This document shows, in pieces, positions 3,774 to 44,274 of a stretch of DNA of 64,000 nucleotides. The stretch lies in the NCBI RefSeq assembly GCF_000024345.1, contig NC_013729.1:4588001-4652000 (forward strand), written 5' to 3'. How positions within the stretch are numbered: the first letter of the stretch is position 1; each line of letters opens with the position of its first letter. This stretch comes from Kribbella flavida DSM 17836 (GTDB taxonomy: Bacteria > Actinomycetota > Actinomycetes > Propionibacteriales > Kribbellaceae). The notes beneath the pieces are model-generated. The model had not been told where the DNA came from, searched no databases, and was given only the letters and a program-made list of their open reading frames with translations. The position numbers were made by a program, and so were the translations under genes.

Positions 3774-4802
3774 TCAGGCGGAGTCGCGCAAGACCAGGTG
3801 GGGATCGAAGATCTTGCACACCGGTTCCGTGCCGGCGTGGGTGATCTGGTCGAGCAGGAGGCGCGACATCTCGGCGGCCATCTCCTCGAGGGGTTGGGCG
3901 ACGGTGGTGAGCCGGGGAGTCGAGGTGCTGGCGGGGGCACTGTCGTCGAACCCGATGACAGCTACGTCGGCGGGAACCGCGCGGCCGGCGTCCCGGAGGG
4001 CTCGGAGGGCGCCGGCCGCCATCAGGTCGTTGGCGGCGAAAACCCCGTCAAGGTCGGGGGTGCGAGCCAGCAGGTCGGCCATCGCCAGCTCACCGCTCTC
4101 CAACGTGAAGTTGCCGTACGCAACGGCAGCGTAGGGCTCGCCGTGCCGTGCCATCGCCTGACGGAAGCCCGAGAGCCGGTCCTGTGCGGCTGGTACGTCG
4201 ATGGGGCCGGCGATCGTGGCGACGCGCCGGCAGCCCCGAGCGACCAGACGGTCGGCGGCCAGGGCGGCGCCGACCTCGTGCGCCAGATCGACGTAGCTGA
4301 TCGGTGCGTGCAGCGCCGGACGGGCGAACAGCACGGCGGGCAGACCCGCGTCGACGAACAGGCCGGGCAGGGTGTCGTCGGCGTGGGTCGACACCAGCAA
4401 CGCCCCGTCCGCGTTGCCGCGGCGGACGTAGTCGACCGCTTCACCGCGCGCGGACTCGGAGTCGGCGAGCACGAGTGTGGGGTGAATGCCCTTCGTGCGC
4501 AGGTGCTTGACCACTCCCCCGGTGACGCGGCCGAAGAACGGGTCGCCGAAGACTTGTTCGGCAGAGCCGTCGGAGCCAGAGATGACCAGGGCGATGGAGC
4601 CTGCTTTGCGGCCGGCGAGCTGGCGGGCGGCGTTGTTGGGGCGGTAGCCGGTGGTGTCGACGGCGGCCATCACCTTCAGCCGCAGGGCGGCGTCGACGGT
4701 CGCGACGCCGTTGACCACTCGGGACACGGTCGCGCGCGACACACCGGCCACCCTGGCGACGTCTTCCAGGGTGGGCGTTCGGTGCTGCTTCCGCGGCCTC
4801 AT
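3774..4802 (-). CDS. LacI-family transcriptional regulator
   Basis: 342 residues. N-terminal LacI helix-turn-helix (LEDVARVAGVSRATVSRVVN, about residues 11-30) and hinge YRPNNAARQLAGRKAGSIAL, followed by a periplasmic-binding-protein-like sensor domain with GVFAANDLMAAGALRAL and VIGFDDSAPA motifs. ATG at 4802 chosen because it gives the usual family length; a GTG at 4808 is also possible. It is the next gene downstream of, and on the same strand as, the secreted hydrolase at 4963-7167. It is the obvious candidate to bind the palindromic operators at 7262-7275 and 7388-7401. Effector probably an oligosaccharide released by that hydrolase (inference). Confidence 0.93.
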   Translation of the reverse strand: MRPRKQHRTPTLEDVARVAGVSRATVSRVVNGVATVDAALRLKVMAAVDTTGYRPNNAARQLAGRKAGSIALVISGSDGSAEQVFGDPFFGRVTGGVVKHLRTKGIHPTLVLADSESARGEAVDYVRRGNADGALLVSTHADDTLPGLFVDAGLPAVLFARPALHAPISYVDLAHEVGAALAADRLVARGCRRVATIAGPIDVPAAQDRLSGFRQAMARHGEPYAAVAYGNFTLESGELAMADLLARTPDLDGVFAANDLMAAGALRALRDAGRAVPADVAVIGFDDSAPASTSTPRLTTVAQPLEEMAAEMSRLLLDQITHAGTEPVCKIFDPHLVLRDSA

Positions 4803-4962: not shown

Positions 4963-7167
4963 TCAGCGTCGGTAGACGCCGAACTCGTAGAGCGAGTAGC
5001 CGAAGCCGGTGCCTCGCTGGGTGCCGGTGAGGCGGACGTAGCGGCCGGAGCCGGCGACGCTGAGGTCGTCGACGTCACCGTTTCCGTCAGCTGTGCTGTA
5101 GAGCGCTCTCCAGGTGTTCCCGTCGTCCGAGACCTCGACCCGGTACGCCCGGGCGTACGCGCCTTCCCAGATCAGCTGGACGCGGTCGAAGGACGTCACC
5201 TGGCCGAGGTCCACCTGCAGCCACTGCGGGTCGGCCCAGTCGCTCGCCCAGCGGGTCGCGTTGTTCCCGTCGGTCACGTTCGACGGCGGGAACGGGGCGC
5301 CGTCGCCGACCTGCTGGTACGACGACGCGGTCACCGGCTTGCCGCGGGCAACGTTCGTGCCGGAGACCGGCGGCGCGACCACCCGGAACGAGCGGGTCTC
5401 GATCCCCACGTTGCCCTTGCCGTCGCGCACGTAGTCGTACAGCTTCCAGACCCCGAGGCGCTGCGGCACGGTCACCGTGAACGGCCCGGTGCCCGACGAC
5501 GGCGTGGTCACCAGGGAGCCGCTGTTGTCGATGTACTTGCCGCCGACCTTGAACTCGTGAGAGAGCGCGTCCCCGTCCGGATCGGTGACCGCGACGTCGA
5601 CCGTGATGGTGCTCCCGGCCGGTACGTCGGTGGTCCGGCTCAGCGTCATGTTGCTGATCACCGGCGGGGTGTTGCCACCCGAAGCGCCGCCGTACGCCTG
5701 CCGGATCGCGTAGTACGACAGCCGCTTCTCGCCGCCCGGGGCGATGTTGAACCACACGGCCCCGAAGTCGTTCTCGGTGCCGTAGTGGAACAGCGTGGCC
5801 CCGAGCGCGACCCCGGTGTGCCCGGTGACGCAGTTCCAGGCCCGCAGATACCCGTCGCGCTTCTGCACGTCGGTCGGCTCGTTCGGTACGCCGTTCACGT
5901 CGTTCGGCACCTCCCACTCGCCGGCCGGGCCGCCCTCGGTCAGGATGTACGGCTTGGTGTAGCCGCCGTTGATCCAGTCCTGCTTCACCTGGCAGACGTT
6001 GCCGTAGGAGTTCACCGCGAGCAGGTCGAGGTCCGGCGAGTACTGCTGGTAGTACGGCCAGGCACCGGTCCACGCGTCGGTCGAGGTCACCGGGTGGTTC
6101 GGGTCGATCGCGTGGATCGCCTTGGCGCCCTCGTTCACGAACCTGGCGTACGCGATCCGCTGCTGCTCGAGCTCGGCGCCGGAGTAGCAGTTCTGCAGCC
6201 CGAGGATCGACTCGTTGCCCACGTTCCACAGCAGCACGCCCGGGTGGTCCTTGTACTCCGTGGTCCAGCGGCGGATCTCGCCGAGCATCGTCTCCTTGTA
6301 CGCCGCGTCGGTGACGTAGTTGGCGCAGCCGCCGCTGCCGGGTCCACCACCAGGTTGGAGCCAGTAGCCGGCGACCACCCGCATCCCGTTGGCGGCCGCC
6401 GCGTCGAAGAGCGTCTTCGAACTGGCGTCGGTCCCCCAGGTACGCAGCGTATTGACGCCGATCGACCGCAACTGCGGCAGGTGCCGGCTCGCCTCCGTGA
6501 CCGGCGGCCCCCAGGTCAGACCCTTCACCTGGTACGGCGAACCGTTGACCAGCAGCTGCCAATTGCCCTGACTACCGGCGATTCGCACCGTGCCGTTGCC
6601 TGGCTGCGGTCCGTCGGAGCCCGGCGTACCGTGCACTTCGAACTCCCACAACGAGTAGCCGTAGCCGCCGACCCGTTGGGTACCGTAGAGCCGCACGTAG
6701 CGGCCTTTGCCGTTGACTGTCAGGGTTTCGGTGCCGCCCCGGCCGGTGGTCGTGCTGTAGATCGGGCTCCAGCTCCGGGCGTCGTCGGACACCTCGATCC
6801 GGTACGCCGTGGCGTGAGCAGCCTCCCAGCGCAGGACGACCTGGCTGACCGACGCGGCCGCGCCGAGATCCACTTGGAGCCACTGCGGATCGCTGAAGAC
6901 GCTGGACCACCGGGTGCCCGGATTGCCGTCCACCGCGGCCGATGCCGGCGTACCGGCTCCTTCCGAGGACGAGGCGGTGGCGGGTTTGCCTTGGGAGAGC
7001 AACGTTGCCGCCTGAGCGGGTGCCGCCTGCAGGACGACGTTGCCGAGCAGCAGCGTGGTCGCCGCGACGGTGGCGGCCAGCAACGATCGGCCGCGGCACC
7101 GGCGGGGACCAGCCCGGCGGGGACCAGCGCGGCGGTCGGTATGCCGGGGCGGGGTCGCGAGGTTCAT
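4963..7167 (-). CDS. Secreted GH2/GH5-like glycoside hydrolase with two F5/8C (CBM32-type) domains
   Basis: 734 residues with a long N-terminal signal peptide (Arg-rich to ~28, hydrophobic 29-45, cut near AQA-ATL at ~54). Domains: CBM32/discoidin-like 56-180 (RWSSVFSDPQWLQVDLG, YGYSLWEFEVHG); a (beta/alpha)8 barrel about 200-540 of the GH2 TIM-barrel type, with candidate acid/base Glu319 in WNVGNES and candidate nucleophile Glu411 in ILTEGGP; an Ig/PKD-like linker about 550-610; and a second CBM32 at about 620-734 that repeats the first. ATG at 7167 with AAGGAG nine bases upstream. Acts outside the cell on a beta-linked polysaccharide, not further identifiable. Controlled by the operator-promoter at 7262-7313. 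Confidence 0.85.
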   Translation of the reverse strand: MNLATPPRHTDRRAGPRRAGPRRCRGRSLLAATVAATTLLLGNVVLQAAPAQAATLLSQGKPATASSSEGAGTPASAAVDGNPGTRWSSVFSDPQWLQVDLGAAASVSQVVLRWEAAHATAYRIEVSDDARSWSPIYSTTTGRGGTETLTVNGKGRYVRLYGTQRVGGYGYSLWEFEVHGTPGSDGPQPGNGTVRIAGSQGNWQLLVNGSPYQVKGLTWGPPVTEASRHLPQLRSIGVNTLRTWGTDASSKTLFDAAAANGMRVVAGYWLQPGGGPGSGGCANYVTDAAYKETMLGEIRRWTTEYKDHPGVLLWNVGNESILGLQNCYSGAELEQQRIAYARFVNEGAKAIHAIDPNHPVTSTDAWTGAWPYYQQYSPDLDLLAVNSYGNVCQVKQDWINGGYTKPYILTEGGPAGEWEVPNDVNGVPNEPTDVQKRDGYLRAWNCVTGHTGVALGATLFHYGTENDFGAVWFNIAPGGEKRLSYYAIRQAYGGASGGNTPPVISNMTLSRTTDVPAGSTITVDVAVTDPDGDALSHEFKVGGKYIDNSGSLVTTPSSGTGPFTVTVPQRLGVWKLYDYVRDGKGNVGIETRSFRVVAPPVSGTNVARGKPVTASSYQQVGDGAPFPPSNVTDGNNATRWASDWADPQWLQVDLGQVTSFDRVQLIWEGAYARAYRVEVSDDGNTWRALYSTADGNGDVDDLSVAGSGRYVRLTGTQRGTGFGYSLYEFGVYRR

Positions 7168-7261: not shown

Positions 7262-7313
7262 AGAGAGCGCTCTCTCGCGAACTGATCGTGCGGGCTGCGA
7301 AGGCTGCTGTCAA
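7262..7313 (-). promoter_or_regulatory. Promoter and LacI-type operator for the secreted hydrolase
   Basis: Minus-strand TTGACA (7313-7308), 17-base spacer, CACGAT -10 (7290-7285), then the perfect 14-bp palindrome AGAGAGCGCTCTCT at 7262-7275, which covers the expected +1 region. This is the textbook arrangement for steric repression by a LacI-family protein. Confidence 0.7.
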
Positions 7314-7353
7314 CGGCTCGATCACGCTCAGCGGTTCCGGAACCGGGCGGCTC

Positions 7354-7401
7354 TTGACAGCGCGCACAGCCGGATCGAGGCTGTCTCAGAGAGCGCTCTC
7401 C
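7354..7401 (+). promoter_or_regulatory. Promoter and LacI-type operator for the DUF1996 gene
   Basis: Plus-strand TTGACA (7354-7359) with a weak -10 (GAGGCT, 7377-7382) 17 bases on, immediately followed by AGAGAGCGCTCTCC (7388-7401), a near-perfect palindrome. Its centre is 126 bp from that of the operator at 7262-7275, about twelve helical turns, so one dimer-of-dimers could bridge both. Confidence 0.6.
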
Positions 7402-7465: not shown

Positions 7466-8398
7466 GTGTTCACCAGAAGGAAGAAAGTCCTGCTCGCCGG
7501 CGGCACCGCCGCCCTCACCCTCAGTGCCTTGCTCACCGCCGGCCTCGGCTCGTCCGCTCAGGCCGACGACCTGGTCACCCACCGGGAGTTCCAGGTCAAC
7601 TGCACGGTCAACCACCGGGCCGGCGACGACCCGATCGTGTTCCCCAACCTGCCCGGCGCGTCGCACGACCACAGCTTCGTCGGCAACCGGACGACCAACG
7701 CCGCCACCACGCTCGACAGCCTCAAGGCGGCCGGCGCCTACGCGACCACCTGCCTCAACCCCGACGACCTGTCGGCGTACTGGTGGCCGACCATGTTCCG
7801 CGGCAACCAGCCCGTGAACCAGACCTGGCACCAGACCATCTACTACAAGTCCGGCATCCACGACTACCGTGCCGTCCGGCCGTTCCCGCCCGGCCTGCGG
7901 TACGTCGTCGGCAGCCCGACCGCGACCCAGGAGGACTTCCGCACCGCTCCCGGCGCCGTCGAGGGCTGGGAGTGCGGCGACTCAGCGCACAACTGGGACT
8001 TCCCGGCGAACTGCCCGGCCGGGACCCAGCTCAACATCCGCTACCAGGCTCCGAGCTGCTGGAACGGACGTGACCTCGACTCTCCCGACCACAAGAGCCA
8101 CATGGCGTACCCGGTGAACGGGTCCTGCCCCAGCAGTCATCCCAAACCGGTCCCGATGCTGGAGTTCAAGATCGCGTTCCCCGCGGACGGCAACGTCACC
8201 GACGTCCGGCTGGCGAGCGGACGGGGGTACACCTGGCACTACGACTTCTTCAACGCCTGGGACGAGCAGACGCTGGCGGCCCTGGTGAGCCACTGCATCA
8301 ACGGTGGCCTGCAGTGCAACTCGAAGGGCTTCGACCTCTACAAGCCCGAGCGCGGTCAGGTCCTCGGCGACAACTACCGGTTGCCCGGACGCCCCTGA
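7466..8398 (+). CDS. Secreted DUF1996-domain protein
   Basis: 310 residues from a GTG at 7466, with an excellent GGAGGAG site. Signal peptide with RRKK start, hydrophobic core and cleavage near AQA-DDL (about 28-31). The mature protein is one DUF1996 domain: VNCTVNHRAGDDPI, PGASHDHSFVGNRTTNA, LNPDDLSAYWWPTM, then Cys-rich segments WECGDS, NCPAGT, SCWNGRD and HCINGGLQC. Even spacing of Cys pairs suggests several disulfides, and the His/Asp/Asn cluster (HDHSF) could be catalytic or metal-binding. The domain is best known from fungi and has no established activity. Divergent from and apparently co-regulated with the secreted hydrolase, implying a role in extracellular polysaccharide breakdown (inference). 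Confidence 0.88.
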   Translation: MFTRRKKVLLAGGTAALTLSALLTAGLGSSAQADDLVTHREFQVNCTVNHRAGDDPIVFPNLPGASHDHSFVGNRTTNAATTLDSLKAAGAYATTCLNPDDLSAYWWPTMFRGNQPVNQTWHQTIYYKSGIHDYRAVRPFPPGLRYVVGSPTATQEDFRTAPGAVEGWECGDSAHNWDFPANCPAGTQLNIRYQAPSCWNGRDLDSPDHKSHMAYPVNGSCPSSHPKPVPMLEFKIAFPADGNVTDVRLASGRGYTWHYDFFNAWDEQTLAALVSHCINGGLQCNSKGFDLYKPERGQVLGDNYRLPGRP

Positions 8399-8448: not shown

Positions 8449-9450
8449 TCAGGAGGAGAACGCCGCGTCGAAGGAAGCCGACGGTGGGTCGAAGGCCAGC
8501 GACTTCACGAACTGCAGCGCCTCGGGGGCGCCGACCAGCCGGTCCATCCCGGCGTCCTCCCACTCGACCGAGATCGGGCCGTCGTACCCGATCGTGTTCA
8601 GCATCCGGAAGCACGCTTCCCACGGGACGTCGCCGTGCCCGGTGGAGACGAAGTCCCAGCCGCGCCGCGGGTCGCCCCAGGCCAGGTGCGAGCCCATCCG
8701 GCCGTTGCGGCCGTTGCCGACCTGGCGCTTCGCGTCCTTGCAGTCGACGTGGCAGATCCGGTCCTTGAAGTCCCACAGGAAGCCGACCGGGTCGAGGTCC
8801 TGCCAGACGAAGTGGCTCGGGTCCCAGTTCAGGCCGAACGCCTCGCGGTGGCCGATCGCCTCCAGCGTGCGTGTGGTCGACCAGTAGTCGTAGGCGATCT
8901 CCGACGGGTGCACCTCGTGCGCGAACTTCACCCCGACCTCGTCGAACACGTCGAGAATCGGGTTCCAGCGGTCGGCGAAGTCGGCGTACCCGGCGTCGAT
9001 CATCTCCGGCGGGACCGGCGGGAACATCGCGACGGTCTTCCAGATCGCCGAGCCGGTGAAGCCGACGACCACGTCGACGCCGAGCGCGCGGGCCGCCCGG
9101 GCGGTCGTCTGCATCTCCTCAGCCGCGCGCTGCCGGACGCCCTCGGCGTCGCCGTCGCCCCAGATGTGCGCGGGCAGGATCGCCTGGTGGCGCTGGTCGA
9201 TCGGGTCGTCGCAGACCGCCTGGCCGAGCAGGTGGTTCGAGATCGTCCAGACCTTGAGGTTGTACTTGTCGAGGATGTCGCGGCGGTTCTGCACGTAGGT
9301 GTCGTCCTCGGCGGCCTTGCGGACGTCGAGGTGGTCACCCCAGCAGGCGATCTCCAGGCCGTCGTAGCCCCAGTCGGCGGCCAGCCGGGCCACTTCCTCG
9401 AACGGGAGGTCGGCCCACTGGCCGGTGAACAGGGTGATCGGTCGAGCCAT
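8449..9450 (-). CDS. Sugar phosphate isomerase/epimerase (AP endonuclease 2-like TIM barrel)
   Basis: 333 residues, full length for the xylose-isomerase-like TIM barrel family that includes IolE/IolI and tagatose epimerases. Metal ligands recognisable from the fold: Glu in FAHEVHPSE, Asp in LNWDPSHF, His in ICHVDCKD and Glu in ISVEWEDAG. The N-terminal segment [17 protein letters not shown] is typical of enzymes acting on oxidised or epimerised sugars. ATG at 9450 preceded by AAGGAG. Separated from the upstream ThuA gene by 352 bases with a strong hairpin, so it probably has its own promoter. Likely converts an intermediate produced by the Gfo/Idh dehydrogenase nearby; exact substrate cannot be read. 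Confidence 0.88.
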
Positions 9451-9802: not shown

Positions 9803-12800
9803 TCACAGCTGCCGCTTCAGGTCCTGACCGACGGCGGTCAGCAGCGTCCGGGCCGGCACGTCCCGGACCGTTCGCGCCTGCGCCAGGAACAGGTCGAGAG
9901 CGAGCGCGGCGAGCGCGTCCCGGCCACGCCGCTGCTGCTGCTCGGCCAGTCCGAGCTGCACCTTCATCACCGTCGCGGTGCCGGCCGGCACCGTCCGGGC
10001 GACGCGGTACCGCTCGACCAGCTTGACCGCCTCGGCGTACGTCGCCACCACGGTGAACGGCACCTTGGTCACCGACGTGTTGCCGGCCTTGTCGGCAGCC
10101 GTCGCGGTCAACTCGTGCGCGCCGAGCCCGAGCGCGACCCCGTCCAGCGTGCCGCCGGCCGGGAGCGCTTTCCCGTCGACGGCCAGCGTCACGGAGGAAA
10201 CGCCGGAGAGCGCGTCCTCGGCGGTCGCGGAGACGCCGAGCACCGACGCCACCCCGAGCTTGCCGCCACTGGCCAGCCCGGTCACGGTGGTCCTCGGCGC
10301 GGTCCGGTCGATCTTGACCGTCACCGACTCGGCCGCCGACACGTTGCCCGCGGTGTCGCTGGCCCGCACCTGCAGCGTGTGCGTGCCATCCGTGGCCAGC
10401 CTCACCGGCGCCGTGTACTCCGACCAGTCGCCGGCACCGATCTTCTGCTCCAGGTAGACCTGCCCCGGCTGGTTGTCGGTCGCCATCGCCGTCGCGACGA
10501 CCGCGTCGGTCCACCAGCCGTTCAGGCCGGACGGCGCCGACGGGTTCACCGACAGGTTCACCTGCGGCGCCTGCGTGTCCCGGACCAGCTTGAAGTAGTC
10601 GAACTTCGCCGTCTTCGAGGCGACCTGGTCGGCGCCGAAGGCGTAGATGCCGAAGCTCGCCGACGCGAGCGCCGGATTGGTCACCGCCGGCAGCGCCGTC
10701 CAGACCAGCCCGTCCGCGCTGTACGACCCGGTGAACGTCGAACCGCTCTTGGCCAGCCGCAGGTACCAGACCCCCTGCGTGGGCGTCGGCGCGTTCGGCG
10801 CGGGCTGCACGATCGCGTTGTTCACCTCGCTGCGCAGCTCGATCCCCCGCGTCACCGCGGAGCCCGCAGCGTTGGTCGCGAGGTAGTCCAGCTTCACGTA
10901 GTTCGCGTCGTCGCCGTACACCAGCAGACCGGCCTGCTGGTACCGCTCGTCGAAGTCCGACCCGTCCACCTTGGTCTCGATCGTCCAGTCACCGTCGGGA
11001 GCCGGCTGCAGCAGCAGGTTCTTCGGGTTCGTGGCCGTGCCCTGGTAGATGTCGCCCTTGCTGGTGTCGATCTCGACCGCTCCCCCGGTCACCCGGTACG
11101 CCGCCGGATCGGGCCGTACGATCGCGGACCAGCGGCACGCGTCGAGCGCCGTACCGGTGAACTCGTCGTCCGGCGTCGGGGCCTCGGCGGTGTCGTCCGG
11201 CGTGATGCTGAAGTAGTCGAACGACGCCGACACCGGCAGCGCCTCGGTCCGGTTGGTCAACCCGAACAGCCCGATCCGGGGATTGCTGATCCCGGCCAGC
11301 TGCTTGGCCTCGGCCATCTCGGTGAAGGTCGCGCCGTCCGCGCTGTACGACGCCCGCAGGTTCGCCCCGTCGCTGGTGAACCGGACCCACACCGTGTCCG
11401 GGTACGCCGCGCCGAGGTTCGCCGTGTTCGAGGCGGCCACCTCGTTCGGCGCCCCGGCCTCCTCGCGGATGAACTGGAAGATCCGGTCCGCGGCCGACGG
11501 AGCACCGGTGGACCGTCCCTGCAGCACCATCTTGGCGTAGTTGTCGTCGTCGCCGTAGACGATCAACCCGGCCTGCTGATAGGCCAGCCGAGCCGGCAAC
11601 GTCAGCTTCGCGGTCGCCTGCCACGCTCCGGCCGGCAACGGCTGCAGCACGATGTTCGGCGTACCGGAGTTGCCGGTGCCGTAGATGTCGGTCGCCGTCA
11701 ACGGCAGCATGAGGTTGCCGCCCGCAACGGACATCTCCTGGTTGCCCCGGACAACCGAGCTCCAGCGCCCCGTGTCCAGCGTCGTCCCGTCGAACCCGTC
11801 GGACCGTCCGGTCAGGCAGGTCGGCGGGGCCGCCGAGTCGACCTTGACGACGATCTTCGCCGTGCCCTTGGCGCCGCGGGAGTCGGTCACCGTCACGGTC
11901 GCGGTGTGCGTACCCGCGGTCGTGTAGGTGTGGCTCGGGTTCGCGCCGGTGCCGGTCGCGCCGTCACCGAAGCTCCAGGCGTACGTCAGCGGGACGTCGC
12001 CCTCGGGATCGGTGGCCGACGAGGTGAAGTCGACCTTCAACGGAGCCTTGCCCTGGACAACGGCCGCGGAGGCCGTCACCACCGGACGCTGGTTCTCGGT
12101 CACCCCCTTGCCGATGAACTTCACCCAGTTGACGTTCAGCTGCCCGGTCGTCTTGACGAAGTACAGCTTGCCGGTGGTCAGCGAGGCGCCGCTGAGCGCC
12201 GAGGAGAAGTTGCCGTAGGTCTGCCAGGCGCCCGTCGCCGTCACCTGGATGGTCGCGATCACCGGCCCGTCGGTCGGCGAGCCCTGCCGGACCTGAACGG
12301 TCGCCCCGGCCTCGGGCGACGCGGCGCGCAGCTCGATCCGGTCGATCCCGGTGAGGTTGGTGGTCGTCCAGCTCCACCAGTCGCCGTCCTCGATGAAGCC
12401 GATGTTCTTGCCGCCGCCCGCGGTGTCGCCGGTGTCCTCGACCTGCACGCCCGGCGTCTCACCGGGTCCGCCGGTCTCGCTGAAGAACTCCGCCTCCCGC
12501 GTCTTCGGCTGCAGCTGCACCACCTTCTCGGTGGTGATCGCACCGGTGCCCGGGGCACCCTTGTCGGTGTACTTCACCGTGACGATGCCGAAGATGTTCG
12601 CGCCGACGTGCCCCTCGTCACCAGGCAACGGGAACGTGCCCTCACAGCCGCGGTACAACTCGTACCCGTGCGCGTGCTCGTCGTGGCCGAGCGCCGGCTG
12701 GGTGACCACGTCCTGGCAGTTCACCGTGCCGTCCTCGGGATCGGTGACGGTCACCTTGTAGCGGATCGTGTCGCCGAAGTCGAAGAAGCCGCCGTTCAGC

Positions 12801-15196
12801 GGCGCCTCGATGCTGATCGTCGGAGCGGTGTTGCCCGCGGTGATCGTCCGGTTGGACACCGCCGACCGTCCGTCGCTGTCGGTCACGGTCAGCCGGGCCG
12901 TGAACACGCCCGCCGAGGCATAGGTGTGGGTCGGCTTGGGGTCGGTCGAGTCGGTCGTGCCGTTGCCGTCGAAGTCCCACGCCAGCGTGATCGGCTGCCC
13001 GTCGGGATCGCGCGACCCGGTGCTGTCGAAGGCCACCGTCAGCGGCGCCGGCCCGGACGTCTTGTCGGTGCTGAACTGCGCGATCGGCGCCCGGTTGCCT
13101 TGCACGTAGTCGATCCGGTAGAGCCCGGAGTCGGCGTTGTTGCCACCGAACCCACTACCCCACTCGATCACGTAGAGCGCACCGTCCGGCCCGAACTGCA
13201 GCGCGTGCGGCCGGATGAAGTTCATCCCCTGCAGCATTCGGGACACGTCGGCGACCTTGCTGCGGTCGTCGTTCAGCTGGACCGAGAACAACCGGCTGTC
13301 GTTCCAGTCGGCGAACACGGCCTTGCCGTCGAAGTACTGCGGCCACTTGCGGTCGGAGTCACTGTCGGGGTCGAACTGGTACGCGCCACTGGTCATCGGC
13401 GCACCACTGCCACCGATCTCCGGCACCCCGGTCGTCGACTTGCCCATCCACAGCGCCGCCGGGATGGCCGCCGGCAGCTGGGTGATGCCGGTGTTGTTCG
13501 GCGAGTTGTTGACCGGCGCGTTGCAGTTGAACGCCGCACCCGACGTACCGGTGGCGAAGTCGTGGTCGTTGTACGGCGTGTTGTTGCCCACGCAGTAGGG
13601 CCAGCCGTAGAAGCCGGGCTTGTCCAGGATGTCCCACTCGACCCGGCCGTCCGGGCCGCGCGTCGGCGAGACCTGACCGGCGTCCGGCCCGTAGTCGGCG
13701 ACGAACAGGTGGTTCGTGGTCGGGTCGATGCCGATCCGGAACGGGTTGCGGAAGCCCATCGCGTAGATCTCCGGGCGGGTCTTCGCGGTGCCCGGCGCGA
13801 ACATGTTGCCGGCCGGGATCGTGTACGAGCCGTCGGCCTCGACGTGCACGCGCAGGATCTTGCCGTTCAGGTTGTTGCTGTTGGCGGAGCTGCGCTGGGC
13901 GTCCCACGGGGCCCGGCCGGCCCGCTCGTCCAGCGGCGAGTAGCCGTCGGAGTCGAACGGGTTGCTGTTGTCGCCGGTGGCAACGAACAGGTTGCCCTGG
14001 TTGTCGAACTCGAGCGCACCACCCGCGTGGCAGCACTGGTCCCGCTGGGTGTCCACCCGCAGGACCTGCTTCTCGCTGGCCAGGTCGAGCGTGTCACCGG
14101 TGAGCTTGAACCGCGACACCCGGTCGAACGCCTCGGTGCCGGCCGGTGAGTAGTACAGGTACAGGAAGCCGTTGCTGTCGAAGGCCGGGTCGAGCGCGAT
14201 GCCGAGCAGGCCGAACTCCTGGCCGGTGTAGACGTTCAGCGTGCCGGCGGTGACCACCGAGCCGTCGGTCTTCACGATCTTCACGGCACCGTTGCGGTCG
14301 ATGTAGAACACGCGGCCGTCACCAGCGATCGCGAGCTCCATCGGGTTCGACGTGTCGTCGTCCAGTGTGACCTTCTGGTAGCTGTCGCTCAGCGACGCCC
14401 CGCAGTCGGCCGGCTGCACACCCGCGGCGGTCTTGATGCCGCCGAGCAGGTGCTGGCGGAAGACCGGGTCGGCGAACGACTCGATCGTGTGCCCCATGCC
14501 GGTGTACCAGGCGCGGCCGCCGTCGTAGTCCTGGCACCACGCGATCGGGTGCTCGGCGCCCATGGTGCCGCCGGTGTACGACGACTCGTCCAGCGAGGCG
14601 AGCACGTGCACGCTGCCGCGCGGGTTGGACCGGTAGTTGTACCACTCGTCGGTCCGGTTCCAGGTGGTCGGCGCGTCCGCGGTCGACGGGTGCGCGTGGT
14701 CCTCCACCTTCACGTTCGCGTTCGGCGTACCGGGTGGGTGGCTGTCGAAGTACGAGCCGACCAGCTTGCCGTACCAGGGCCACGCGTACTCCGTGTCGGA
14801 GGCCGCGTGCACCCCGGCGTACCCGCCGCCGTTACGGATGTAACGCTCGAAGGCGGCCTGCTGGTCCGCGTTCAGCACGTCGCCGGTGGTCGACAGCCAG
14901 ATGACCACCTCGTACTTGGCCAGTTCGGCGTCGGTGAACATCGCCGCGTCCTCGGTCGCGGTGACCGTGAACCCGTTCGCCGTCGCCAGGTCCTTGATGG
15001 TCTGGATGCCGGCCGGGATCGAGTCGTGCCGGAAGCCGGCCGTCTTGCTGAAGATCAGCGCGTTGAAGGTTTCGTCGCCGTGCCCGGGATGGGCCCGCGC
15101 GGGGAGAGCACTGAGAGGTATCGCCAGGGCGGCGATCAGCGCCAGCACGACAGCGCGGATCACCGTGCCGTGCAGACGCCTGCGTAGCTGGTTCAT
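9803..15196 (-). CDS. Giant secreted ThuA / sugar dehydrogenase / PKD / CBM6 mosaic protein
   Basis: 1797 residues, signal peptide to about 36 (ARA-HPGHGDE). Modules in order: ThuA-like glutamine-amidotransferase fold, about 42-262 (FNALIFSKTAGFRHDSI, IWLSTTGDVL, GYAGVHAASD); glucose/sorbosone-dehydrogenase-type beta propeller, about 275-670 (GNLFVATGDNSNPFD, GFRNPFRIGIDP); PKD, about 690-775; an Ig-like metal-site-like segment; CBM6, about 890-1015 (FIEDGDWWSWTTTNL); second PKD; two concanavalin-like DUF1349-type domains, about 1115-1490; Ig-like repeats; and a helical C-terminal FIMAH-like tail. ATG at 15196 with GGAG. Probably binds and oxidises sugars at the cell surface, with substrate anchoring by the many accessory modules. 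ThuA is linked to trehalose/disaccharide oxidation in rhizobia; its role here is inference. Confidence 0.88.
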   Translation of the reverse strand: MNQLRRRLHGTVIRAVVLALIAALAIPLSALPARAHPGHGDETFNALIFSKTAGFRHDSIPAGIQTIKDLATANGFTVTATEDAAMFTDAELAKYEVVIWLSTTGDVLNADQQAAFERYIRNGGGYAGVHAASDTEYAWPWYGKLVGSYFDSHPPGTPNANVKVEDHAHPSTADAPTTWNRTDEWYNYRSNPRGSVHVLASLDESSYTGGTMGAEHPIAWCQDYDGGRAWYTGMGHTIESFADPVFRQHLLGGIKTAAGVQPADCGASLSDSYQKVTLDDDTSNPMELAIAGDGRVFYIDRNGAVKIVKTDGSVVTAGTLNVYTGQEFGLLGIALDPAFDSNGFLYLYYSPAGTEAFDRVSRFKLTGDTLDLASEKQVLRVDTQRDQCCHAGGALEFDNQGNLFVATGDNSNPFDSDGYSPLDERAGRAPWDAQRSSANSNNLNGKILRVHVEADGSYTIPAGNMFAPGTAKTRPEIYAMGFRNPFRIGIDPTTNHLFVADYGPDAGQVSPTRGPDGRVEWDILDKPGFYGWPYCVGNNTPYNDHDFATGTSGAAFNCNAPVNNSPNNTGITQLPAAIPAALWMGKSTTGVPEIGGSGAPMTSGAYQFDPDSDSDRKWPQYFDGKAVFADWNDSRLFSVQLNDDRSKVADVSRMLQGMNFIRPHALQFGPDGALYVIEWGSGFGGNNADSGLYRIDYVQGNRAPIAQFSTDKTSGPAPLTVAFDSTGSRDPDGQPITLAWDFDGNGTTDSTDPKPTHTYASAGVFTARLTVTDSDGRSAVSNRTITAGNTAPTISIEAPLNGGFFDFGDTIRYKVTVTDPEDGTVNCQDVVTQPALGHDEHAHGYELYRGCEGTFPLPGDEGHVGANIFGIVTVKYTDKGAPGTGAITTEKVVQLQPKTREAEFFSETGGPGETPGVQVEDTGDTAGGGKNIGFIEDGDWWSWTTTNLTGIDRIELRAASPEAGATVQVRQGSPTDGPVIATIQVTATGAWQTYGNFSSALSGASLTTGKLYFVKTTGQLNVNWVKFIGKGVTENQRPVVTASAAVVQGKAPLKVDFTSSATDPEGDVPLTYAWSFGDGATGTGANPSHTYTTAGTHTATVTVTDSRGAKGTAKIVVKVDSAAPPTCLTGRSDGFDGTTLDTGRWSSVVRGNQEMSVAGGNLMLPLTATDIYGTGNSGTPNIVLQPLPAGAWQATAKLTLPARLAYQQAGLIVYGDDDNYAKMVLQGRSTGAPSAADRIFQFIREEAGAPNEVAASNTANLGAAYPDTVWVRFTSDGANLRASYSADGATFTEMAEAKQLAGISNPRIGLFGLTNRTEALPVSASFDYFSITPDDTAEAPTPDDEFTGTALDACRWSAIVRPDPAAYRVTGGAVEIDTSKGDIYQGTATNPKNLLLQPAPDGDWTIETKVDGSDFDERYQQAGLLVYGDDANYVKLDYLATNAAGSAVTRGIELRSEVNNAIVQPAPNAPTPTQGVWYLRLAKSGSTFTGSYSADGLVWTALPAVTNPALASASFGIYAFGADQVASKTAKFDYFKLVRDTQAPQVNLSVNPSAPSGLNGWWTDAVVATAMATDNQPGQVYLEQKIGAGDWSEYTAPVRLATDGTHTLQVRASDTAGNVSAAESVTVKIDRTAPRTTVTGLASGGKLGVASVLGVSATAEDALSGVSSVTLAVDGKALPAGGTLDGVALGLGAHELTATAADKAGNTSVTKVPFTVVATYAEAVKLVERYRVARTVPAGTATVMKVQLGLAEQQQRRGRDALAALALDLFLAQARTVRDVPARTLLTAVGQDLKRQL

Positions 15197-15239
15197 GGGG
15201 AGCTCCTCATGGGTCGGATAAGGTGCGCGCTCCATCGGT

Positions 15240-23286: not shown

Positions 23287-23321
23287 AGAGAGCGCTCCCT
23301 GGCAGTCAGGGAGCGCTCCCT
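23287..23321. promoter_or_regulatory. Twin palindromic LacI-type operators, 21 bp apart
   Basis: AGAGAGCGCTCCCT (23287-23300) and the perfect palindrome AGGGAGCGCTCCCT (23308-23321; 16 bp perfect with the flanking C/G) have centres 21 bp apart, two helical turns, so two dimers would bind on the same DNA face. They lie between the ROK operon and the GH71/99-like gene. Confidence 0.65.
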
Positions 23322-23375
23322 GTGCGAACCGAGTCGAATTCTTGCGAGCTTTCCTCGAAGTCTTGCGATCAACCC

Positions 23376-23404
23376 TTGCGGGCCGAAGCGACCGTTTGTA
23401 CGCT
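23376..23404 (+). promoter_or_regulatory. Promoter of the GH71/GH99-like gene
   Basis: TTGCGG (23376-23381), exactly 17 bases, TACGCT (23399-23404), with the ATG 47 bases beyond. Three copies of CTTGCG at roughly 13-21 bp spacing precede and overlap the -35. Confidence 0.5.
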
Positions 23405-23450
23405 CGGCGCCACTCTCCGCAGTCCTGTCCGCCCATCCAGGAGCCTGCAC

Positions 23451-24992
23451 ATGGCACTCACACGACGTACTTTTCTGGCCGCGTCCGCGGCCGGCGCCGC
23501 CACCGCGGCCACCGGCGCCTCGGTCGGAGGCGCGCTGACCGCTTCTGCCACGACGGCAACACCGGTGGCGAGCCCTCCCGGCGACGTGGTCGGCAAGATC
23601 ACCGTGGGCTACCAGGGCTGGTTCGCCTGCGCCGGGGACGGTGCCCCGATCAACGGCTGGTGGCACTGGAGCAACAACTGGGGCCAGCCGCCGTCGCCGA
23701 CCAACAACGCACTCGGCAGCTGGCCGGACGTCCGCGACTACACAAGGACCTACCAGACGGCGTACTCGAACCTCGGCAACGGCCAGCCTGCCAAGCTGTT
23801 CTCGTCGTACGACCAGCAAACGGTGAACACGCACTTCCAGTGGATGCAGCAGCACGGCTGCGACACCGCGGCTCTGCAGCGGTTCAACCCATTCGGCGGC
23901 GAGGGGCCGACCCGCGACGCGATGGCGGTCAAGGTGCGCCAGGCCGCCGAACAGTACGGCCGGAAGTTCTACATCATGTACGACGCCACCGGCTGGCAGA
24001 ACATGCAGTCGGAGATGAAGCAGGACTGGACCAGCAAGATGAGCGCGTACACGGCCTCACCGGCGTACGCGCGGCAGAACGGGAAACCGGTCGTCTGCAT
24101 CTGGGGCTTCGGGTTCAACGAGGGAAACAAGACCTGGCCCGCAGCGGTCTGCCTGGACGTGGTCAACTGGTTCAAGAGCCAGGGCTGCTACGTGATCGGC
24201 GGCGTGCCGACGCACTGGCGACGCGGCGTCGAGGACTCGCGCCCCGGCTACCTGGACGTCTACCACGCCTTCAACATGCTCTCCCCGTGGATGGTCGGGC
24301 GGATCACCGACCTCGCCGGCGCGGACCACTTCTACGACAACGTCTATCTGCAGGACCAGGCCGACTGCAACGCCCACGGCATCGACTACCAGCCGTGCGT
24401 GATCCCCGGCGACCTGCAGTCCGGACACCGCCGGCACGGGGATCTGATGTGGCGGCAGTTCTACAACCTGAAGCGGGTCGGCGTGCAGGGTTTGTACATC
24501 TCGATGTTCGACGAGTACAACGAGGGCAACCAGATCGCCAAGACCGCGGAGAGCGCGGCCTGGGTTCCGCAGGGATCGGGGATCCGGGCGCTCGACGAGG
24601 ACGGCACCGCCTGCTCCGCGGACTACTACTTGCGGCTCACCAACGACGGCGGGCGCATGTTCAAGGGTCAGCTCGCGCTCACCCCGAACCGGCCGACCCC
24701 GCCGATGCCGGCCCAGGGCACCGGCGGCGTGATCTTCTACGAGCACGTCGACTACGGCGGCACCCCGGGACAGCCGCTTGCCAAGGGCAACTACACCCGC
24801 GCCCAGCTGCAGGCCGCCGGCGTCCAGGACAACTGGGCGTCGTCGGTCCGGATCCCGTCCGGCTGGACGGTCACCGCGTACTCCGAGGACAACTTCGGCG
24901 GCCAGTCCTGGACCTGGACGGCGAACACCGCGAACTTCACCACCCTGTCACCCAACGCCAACGACCACCTGACCTCCTGCCGCATCCAGTGA
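23451..24992 (+). CDS. Tat-exported GH71/GH99-like glycosidase with beta/gamma-crystallin-like tail
   Basis: 513 residues. The Tat signal (LTRRTFLAASAAGAATAA) is followed by a TIM-barrel domain, about 45-410: VGYQGWFACAGDGAPINGWWHW, KLFSSYDQQTVNTHFQWMQQHG, KFYIMYDATGWQ, GLYISMFDEYNEGNQI. The acidic residues in MYDATGW and MFDEYNEG are where GH71/GH99-like enzymes carry catalytic or substrate carboxylates. Residues about 430-513 form a beta/gamma-crystallin-like fold (VIFYEHVDYGG, TAYSEDNFGGQSWTW), usually calcium- or glycan-binding. ATG at 23451 with AGGAG. Often annotated as xylosidase/arabinosidase in actinobacteria, but I see no direct proof of that. Divergent from the sugar uptake operon, fitting a supplier of its substrate. 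Confidence 0.82.
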   Translation: MALTRRTFLAASAAGAATAATGASVGGALTASATTATPVASPPGDVVGKITVGYQGWFACAGDGAPINGWWHWSNNWGQPPSPTNNALGSWPDVRDYTRTYQTAYSNLGNGQPAKLFSSYDQQTVNTHFQWMQQHGCDTAALQRFNPFGGEGPTRDAMAVKVRQAAEQYGRKFYIMYDATGWQNMQSEMKQDWTSKMSAYTASPAYARQNGKPVVCIWGFGFNEGNKTWPAAVCLDVVNWFKSQGCYVIGGVPTHWRRGVEDSRPGYLDVYHAFNMLSPWMVGRITDLAGADHFYDNVYLQDQADCNAHGIDYQPCVIPGDLQSGHRRHGDLMWRQFYNLKRVGVQGLYISMFDEYNEGNQIAKTAESAAWVPQGSGIRALDEDGTACSADYYLRLTNDGGRMFKGQLALTPNRPTPPMPAQGTGGVIFYEHVDYGGTPGQPLAKGNYTRAQLQAAGVQDNWASSVRIPSGWTVTAYSEDNFGGQSWTWTANTANFTTLSPNANDHLTSCRIQ

Positions 24993-43685: not shown

Positions 43686-43710
43686 GAGCCGTTTCCCCTC
43701 TCAGAGAGCG

Positions 43711-44274
43711 CTATCTCGTAGCTGATCCCGCGATGAACGGGATCGGCAGCAGGCCGGGCATCGTGAAGTGCTCGATGTCGACGGAGGTGAAGCCTGCGGC
43801 GCGGAGGGCGGTTTCGATGTCGCGGGTCGGATCGCAGCCGCGGTCGAACCGTCGGGTGAACGGGGCAGCGACACGCTGCAACCTCCGCAGCCAGGCGCCC
43901 CCGGCCGCACCGACGTGCTCGAAGAAGACGAAACGTCCGCCGGGGCGCAGGACGCGACGGAGCTCGGTCAGAACGACGGTGAGGTCGTCCACCGAGCACA
44001 GGACGACGGTCGAGAGAGCCCCGTCGACGCTGGCGTCCGGCAAGGGGATCTGTTCGGCGTTGCCGTCGATGATTCGCCGCTTGCCTGCCGGCCCGACTCC
44101 CGATCGAGTGAGCGCGGCGCGGTCGCGGGGGTTGGGCTCCAGGCCGATCCAGGTGACGTCGTCGCGGAGGTAGGCGAAATTGGCGCCGGTCCCGGCACCG
44201 ATCTCCAGTACCTCGCCCGAGAGGGATCCGATCAGGCGCCGTTTCGCCTCTGGGTAGCCGCTCCAGCTCGCCAT
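43711..44274 (-). CDS. Class I SAM-dependent methyltransferase
   Basis: 187 residues, short but complete. Motif I VLEIGAGTGANFAYL (about 22-36), acidic end of strand 2 in IGLEPNP, motif II-like IPLPDASVDGALSTVVLCSV and post-motif LRRVLRPGGRFVFFEHV, as in methyltransferase domain 11 (UbiE/COQ5-like) proteins. ATG at 44274 with AAAGGG; an upstream in-frame ATG would add ten residues. Substrate unknown. Convergent with lldR; an AGAGAGCGCTATCT sequence spans its stop codon. Confidence 0.9.
   Translation of the reverse strand: MASWSGYPEAKRRLIGSLSGEVLEIGAGTGANFAYLRDDVTWIGLEPNPRDRAALTRSGVGPAGKRRIIDGNAEQIPLPDASVDGALSTVVLCSVDDLTVVLTELRRVLRPGGRFVFFEHVGAAGGAWLRRLQRVAAPFTRRFDRGCDPTRDIETALRAAGFTSVDIEHFTMPGLLPIPFIAGSATR

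Follow-up and report, generated by a model that had tools for sequence, protein, structure and literature searches.

The window, a 64,000-nucleotide stretch of the Kribbella flavida DSM 17836 chromosome, contains an intergenic region from which two promoters point away from each other into genes for two secreted proteins, a carbohydrate-active hydrolase and a protein with the domain DUF1996 (Table 1). A gene for a LacI-family repressor lies downstream of the hydrolase gene. Downstream of the DUF1996 gene, a xylose isomerase-like TIM-barrel gene (8449-9450) is 93–96% identical and located nearby in four relatives, and positions 9803-15235 encode an 1810-residue protein composed of ThuA, glucose/sorbosone dehydrogenase, PKD, CBM6, two concanavalin-like stretches (GH43_C2/DUF1349) and a bacterial Ig-like domain.

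Table 1. Features of the divergent control region and the genes it connects. Positions are those of the window unless another locus is given.
Feature	Position	Strand	Remarks
LacI-family repressor, recognition helix GVSRATVSRVVNG	3774-4802	-	Pfam LacI and Peripla_BP_3
Secreted CBM32-GH158-CBM32 enzyme, predicted endo-β-1,3-glucanase	4963-7167	-	sequence and predicted structure
C-terminal CBM32	4969-5361	-	Pfam and alignment of relatives
GH158 catalytic TIM barrel	5683-6591	-	9oro and 6pal matches; Foldseek
N-terminal CBM32	6628-6996	-	resembles Paenibacillus IK-5 chitosan-binding modules (see text)
Operator 1, AGAGAGCGCTCTCT	7262-7275		just beyond the GH158 promoter, downstream side
-10-like box CACGAT, GH158 promoter	7285-7290	-	17-bp spacer from -35; weak consensus
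-35 box TTGACA, GH158 promoter	7308-7313	-	exact in 31/31 loci
-35 box TTGACA, DUF1996 promoter	7354-7359	+	exact in 31/31 loci
-10-like box GAGGCT, DUF1996 promoter	7377-7382	+	17-bp spacer from -35; weak consensus
Operator 2, AGAGAGCGCTCTCC	7388-7401		just beyond the DUF1996 promoter, downstream side
Secreted DUF1996 protein	7466-8398	+	PF09362, E 1.3e-47; GTG start, AGGAGG ribosome site
DUF1996 domain	7628-8260	+	invariant residues in alignment of 35 relatives
Second DUF1996 locus: lacI divergent from CBM32-CBM32-GH16, then CBM32-DUF1996	L122:6638-10857

The hydrolase gene starts with an ATG at 7167 behind a GAAGGAG ribosome site and encodes a signal peptide, as judged from the sequence. 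The initial annotation had described the enzyme as GH2-like. A Pfam GH2_C match exists but is weak, and it is superseded by sequence and fold matches to GH158, a β-1,3-glucanase family. Phmmer searches against PDB sequences recovered GH158(Pro) (9oro, E 8e-35) and BuGH158 (6pal, E 1e-22), and GH158 structures were the best Foldseek matches (target TM 0.85) to an AlphaFold model of the protein (pLDDT 84.7), aligning with both its barrel and the Ig-like domain that follows. The signature of clan GH-A is present, with WNVGNE324 after strand 4 and TE416 after strand 7, and the N323-E324 acid/base pair and the nucleophile E416, which have counterparts in BuGH158 and GH158(Pro), are invariant in 28 sequences (numbering of window:4963-7182:-). 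BuGH158 is an endo-β-1,3-glucanase with tested catalytic residues (PMC7157763); compared with it and GH158(Pro), the window enzyme is ~22–28% identical, carries two flanking CBM32 modules, and has a predicted activity. Assignment to GH158 in place of GH2 narrows the substrate to β-1,3-glucan, which we regard as the probable target. The N-terminal CBM32 is ~50% identical to chitosan-binding modules of the Paenibacillus IK-5 chitosanase/glucanase, a level of identity from which its specificity cannot be read. Fungal walls typically combine β-1,3-glucan and chitosan, from which we infer a fungal-wall substrate.

Direct reading of the intergenic sequence bears out the layout that had been described earlier: two TTGACA boxes, each followed by a 17-bp spacer, and two palindromes of 14 bp with a central CG, whose centers are 126 bp apart. 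Both -10 boxes are weak, matching no more than NANNNT, and scanning with strict sigma-70 criteria returned 0 promoters, so that the promoter claim rests on conservation. Exact matches to RGAGAGCGCTCTCY occur three times in the whole 7.58-Mb single-contig genome, two of them being operators 1 and 2. Looser copies are unusually common in the region (40 in the window at ≤3 mismatches versus 3.7 in shuffles, mostly inside genes), which makes the evidence from this single genome weaker than it looks. Comparison with relatives settles the question, confirming that the divergent arrangement is real beyond chance. The comparison covers a sample of 31 loci, the window plus 30 relatives with divergent genes from Kribbella and Pseudonocardiales (Kribbella, Umezawaea, Actinophytocola, Amycolatopsis, Saccharothrix, Lentzea and genera akin to them). 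All 30 relatives, or 31/31 with the window, possess a pair of palindromes and, toward either gene, a TTGACA box without mismatch; in all 30 each palindrome is located just beyond its TTGACA box.

The same sample bears on how the two operators might work together. According to the initial annotation, one LacI-family repressor could loop the region over close to twelve helical turns. In such a mechanism, a single LacI tetramer would bridge both operators and repress both promoters together. The 126 bp in the window genome do correspond to 12.0 turns, and LacI proteins of other systems are known to loop DNA. Across the 31 loci, however, the distance between operators takes 19 distinct values from 88 to 146 bp, and conserved helical phasing was looked for in these loci and not found (resultant length 0.27, or 0.21 for the distinct distances). 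Far better kept is the spacing between an operator and the -35 box of its promoter: from -35 start to operator start it measures 32–36 bp on the DUF1996 side in 29/31 loci, and on the GH side the operator follows the -35 start by 38–44 bp. A required loop is therefore not supported, and we consider bridging of this kind unlikely. The near-fixed spacings fit independent blocking, with, apparently, a separate operator for each promoter.

Both a helix-turn-helix and a sugar-binding domain were identified by Pfam in the product of the adjacent lacI gene. Its SRATVSR helix occurs in 3 of the 48 LacI proteins of the genome, and 49 of 64 related lacI genes from DUF1996 loci are themselves preceded by the operator found in the window; among these 64, the operator is absent in front of the Kribbella copies. 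For LacI-family regulators, an operator at their own promoter is a common but not a universal trait. The helix and the operators together make the adjacent LacI the likely regulator of both promoters. Another LacI protein of the genome, for example of the CebR/CelR type, could in principle control the region instead, as two more proteins with the SRATVSR helix are encoded and the CelR operator TGGGAGCGCTCCCA resembles the operator of the window. Several genera, moreover, keep both operators without an adjoining lacI, so the repressor has to work from another location in some cases. Against such control stand the exact co-occurrence of the adjacent lacI with the cassette in Kribbella (see below) and the operators that its relatives carry at their own genes, and we rate it as improbable.

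To gauge how firmly the genes belong together, we examined 80 loci that were picked by DUF1996 similarity alone and thus represent the nearest relatives of the query rather than the whole DUF1996 family. GH158 lies within reach in 65/80, LacI is encoded in 62/80, and CBM32 in 79/80, in 45 of them immediately ahead of DUF1996 in the same orientation, probably fused to it. GH55 is found in 21/80 and GH16 in 3/80 loci, and GH3 is common among the neighbors. These counts agree with the earlier proposal that DUF1996 accompanies a CBM32-bearing polysaccharidase. As the arrangement varies by lineage, being divergent, on the same strand, or a few kb apart, the association goes beyond synteny by descent. 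The sets of Kribbella genomes that contain lacI (≥66% identity), GH158 and an intact DUF1996 gene are identical, each comprising the same 8 of the 21, for which the chance probability is 1/C(21,8) = 5e-6 if phylogeny is ignored; one further genome contains only a broken DUF1996 remnant. The gene pair is thus clearly conserved in relatives. Of the strict co-regulation that had been claimed, co-regulation through the adjacent LacI is very probable, the qualifier "strict" being a reading from sequence. We hold with high confidence that lacI, GH158 and DUF1996 constitute a cassette under shared control.

The abundance of looser palindromes raises the possibility that they are mainly a motif of a chromosome domain and that the two sites described here have no special regulatory role. 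In favor of this, 67 palindromes like RGAGAGCGCTCTCY (≤2 mismatches) crowd into 132 kb of chromosome with sharp boundaries, the window among them (genome 4.560–4.692 Mb); most of the 20-kb pieces sampled elsewhere contain almost none, with further rich stretches at 3.34–3.36, 3.60–3.70 and ~3.75–3.94 Mb. Around 85% of the enriched palindromes are inside genes. Genes of the window contain 30 sites at ≤3 mismatches, compared with 2.6 (max 5) after synonymous-codon shuffling, and the word AGAGAGCG occurs 37 times where 0.3 are expected. All sites in this genome with ≤1 mismatch to AGAGAGCGCTCTCT are located at 2.6–5.0 Mb, an interval surrounding the point near 3.7 Mb where the GC skew switches. 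Among Kribbella genomes, counts at ≤1 mismatch are two-peaked, with 21–101 sites in 10/19 and 4–7 in 9/19. We rejected lacI or DUF1996 as the cause of the scatter because high- and low-count genomes do not match the presence of the system, and likewise a single repeated peptide or reading frame, since the intragenic sites occur in all three phases. No tRNA gene was found in the window and two were found in the stretches scanned, at 4.53 and 4.68 Mb, which do not by themselves show an integrated element.

At 23287-23321 of the window, two palindromes, AGAGAGCGCTCCCT and AGGGAGCGCTCCCT, lie side by side at a distance of 21 bp, just upstream of a gene without Pfam match (23322-24992); palindrome AGAGAGCGCTATCT (43703-43716) lies between divergent genes for an FMN-dependent dehydrogenase and a histidine kinase; and GTAGAGCGCTCTCC (5098-5111), ~300 bp ahead of lacI, falls inside the GH158 gene at its 3' end. 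The last is identical in four other Kribbella species, which may simply reflect a conserved peptide.

Several observations set the two promoter sites apart from this background. Exact sites number only three, all at promoters of β-1,3-glucanase-family or DUF1996 genes; both sites are kept in families without scatter in their 12.9-kb loci; and the lacI-GH158-DUF1996 trio is present in two Kribbella genomes (G002, G011) with just 5–6 sites per genome. For these reasons the regulatory interpretation stands despite the scatter, and we regard a mere domain motif as highly improbable.

The third exact copy of RGAGAGCGCTCTCY, at genome position 3936327, lies 34 bp downstream of where a TTGACA box starts. 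The gene behind it encodes a secreted CBM32-GH55 protein that matches structures of SacteLam55A at 4.5e-196, an exo-β-1,3-glucosidase (PMC10637969). This promoter also bears GGGAACGTTCCC, of which the genome contains exactly two exact copies. The other copy is located between a second lacI gene and a GH16-DUF1996 operon, where GGGAGCGTTCCC and GGGAACGTTCCC are found at a distance of 135 bp from each other, next to mirror-image TTGACA boxes. In this second locus, a CBM32-GH16 gene, with a catalytic part similar to endo-β-1,3-glucanases at 7e-65, precedes the DUF1996 gene, in which the domain is fused to CBM32; a weakly matching TIM-barrel gene of the xylose isomerase-like family is found beside the lacI gene of the locus. 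The GH55 promoter appears to integrate two repressors. As predicted before the search, the double-site promoter exists in exactly the six Kribbella genomes that have both DUF1996 loci, and CBM32-GH55 lies behind it in 6/6. In three relatives, GH55 is encoded beside lacI-GH158-DUF1996. One Kribbella genome has a second double-site promoter (L229, G004:C1:4275777), located before a protein with a distant GH16-like match at 30% identity.

These targets distinguish the system from the CelR/CebR cellulose regulons of actinobacteria. The two have in common the LacI family, the central AGCGCT palindrome, and control of secreted polysaccharidases, but the operator of the window differs from TGGGAGCGCTCCCA at two positions per half-site and its targets belong to β-1,3-glucanase families rather than to cellulases. 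With operator RGAGAGCGCTCTCY instead of TGGGAGCGCTCCCA and with GH158, GH55 and DUF1996 as targets, we rejected membership in a CelR/CebR regulon. A survey of cellulose systems noted sites of the GGAGAGCGCTCTCC class in other actinobacteria (Sros_3721-3725 and Caci genes) upstream of genes for LacI, CBM32, GH3 and possible GH16 β-1,3-glucanases (PMC3377646). They belong to the same palindrome class and have LacI, CBM32, GH3 and possible GH16 genes as neighbors; in the relevant section of that survey, DUF1996 is unnamed and no glucan regulon is proposed.

The DUF1996 protein of the window has a Sec-type signal peptide, judged by eye, and matches PF09362 over model positions 1–237 with 163 bits (cut-off 27); its nearest named relatives are from Kribbella strains and show 81–92% identity in DUF1996. 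Invariant in 35 relatives are D55, H67-x-H69, D101, Y105-W106, D208-H209-x-x-H212, H258-x-D260 and several cysteines, and these residues are retained in the second DUF1996 paralogue of the genome, which is 46% identical. Also present is the published fungal signature D-x4-P-x5-6-H-x-H-x3-G ... D-x-S-x-YW-x-P ... CP ... H-x-D-x3-GW, with A264 replacing G and three variable spacers slightly outside the published ranges. Fungal DUF1996 proteins share with their bacterial counterparts the Pfam domain, most signature residues, and fusions to carbohydrate-binding or WSC domains; they differ in having been studied as vacuolar/stress proteins, with a role in polysaccharide degradation only suggested (PMC4738358, PMC7679414).

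Whether DUF1996 acts as an enzyme is, on this evidence, an evenly balanced question. The invariant H67, H69, H209, H212, H258, D260, D55 and D101 of the bacterial relatives resemble an active or metal site, and a good part of this His/Asp cluster recurs in the published fungal motif. Somewhat short of even odds, in our estimate, is the alternative that DUF1996 is non-enzymatic and that, secreted and co-expressed with the glucanase, it binds glycans, loosens walls or protects against stress. Such a role would agree with the study of fungal members as stress and wall-integrity proteins (PMC4738358, PMC9148135) and with the structural searches: a fold search of the PDB with a confident AF2 model (mean pLDDT 83.7) gave nothing at E≤0.001 (TM ~0.1), and a sequence search of the PDB gave 0 matches up to E 10. 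The frequent fusion to CBM32 here, or to CBM1, CBM6 or WSC in fungi (PMC7679414), suits an enzyme and an accessory domain alike.

Taken together, the region is quite likely the control region of a LacI-repressed β-1,3-glucan utilization cassette, most likely directed at the fungal cell wall. The adjacent LacI would occupy two separate operators, one at the start site of each divergent promoter or directly behind it, and thereby block the GH158 and DUF1996 promoters until released, probably by a small β-1,3-gluco-oligosaccharide. The secreted GH158 enzyme, anchored by its CBM32 modules, would then cut β-1,3-glucan, with the secreted DUF1996 protein presumably acting on the same wall material. 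Elsewhere in the genome, the window-type operator would also control the CBM32-GH55 enzyme, and a second LacI circuit using GGGAACGTTCCC would govern GH16 and the CBM32-DUF1996 fusion while sharing the GH55 promoter. The β(1,3)-glucan utilization locus of Bacteroides, with GH16_3, GH158 and GH3 (PMC7157763), is similar in its overlapping set of enzyme families, GH16 and GH158 with GH3 added in related loci, and in placing them under one inducible control. It relies, however, on a hybrid two-component sensor where LacI repression is predicted here, and the actinobacterial cassette lacks SusC/D and adds GH55 and DUF1996.

As a tentative proposal, with chances a little below even, DUF1996 may define a new family of carbohydrate-active enzymes whose fold is not yet in the PDB, acting on fungal-wall β-1,3-glucan or glucan-chitosan, common to fungus-digesting bacteria and fungi, and deployed in bacteria by a two-repressor β-1,3-glucan regulon. 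DUF1996 is a domain of fungi and actinobacteria annotated without a function, and neighborhood, domain fusion, shared operators and exact co-occurrence now tie it to the GH158, GH16 and GH55 families, which provides a concrete substrate class to test. The data outline a LacI-controlled β-1,3-glucan regulon in actinobacteria, and the retention of this set-up across many soil actinobacteria points to a part for DUF1996 in the digestion of β-1,3-glucan, for example that of fungal cell walls.
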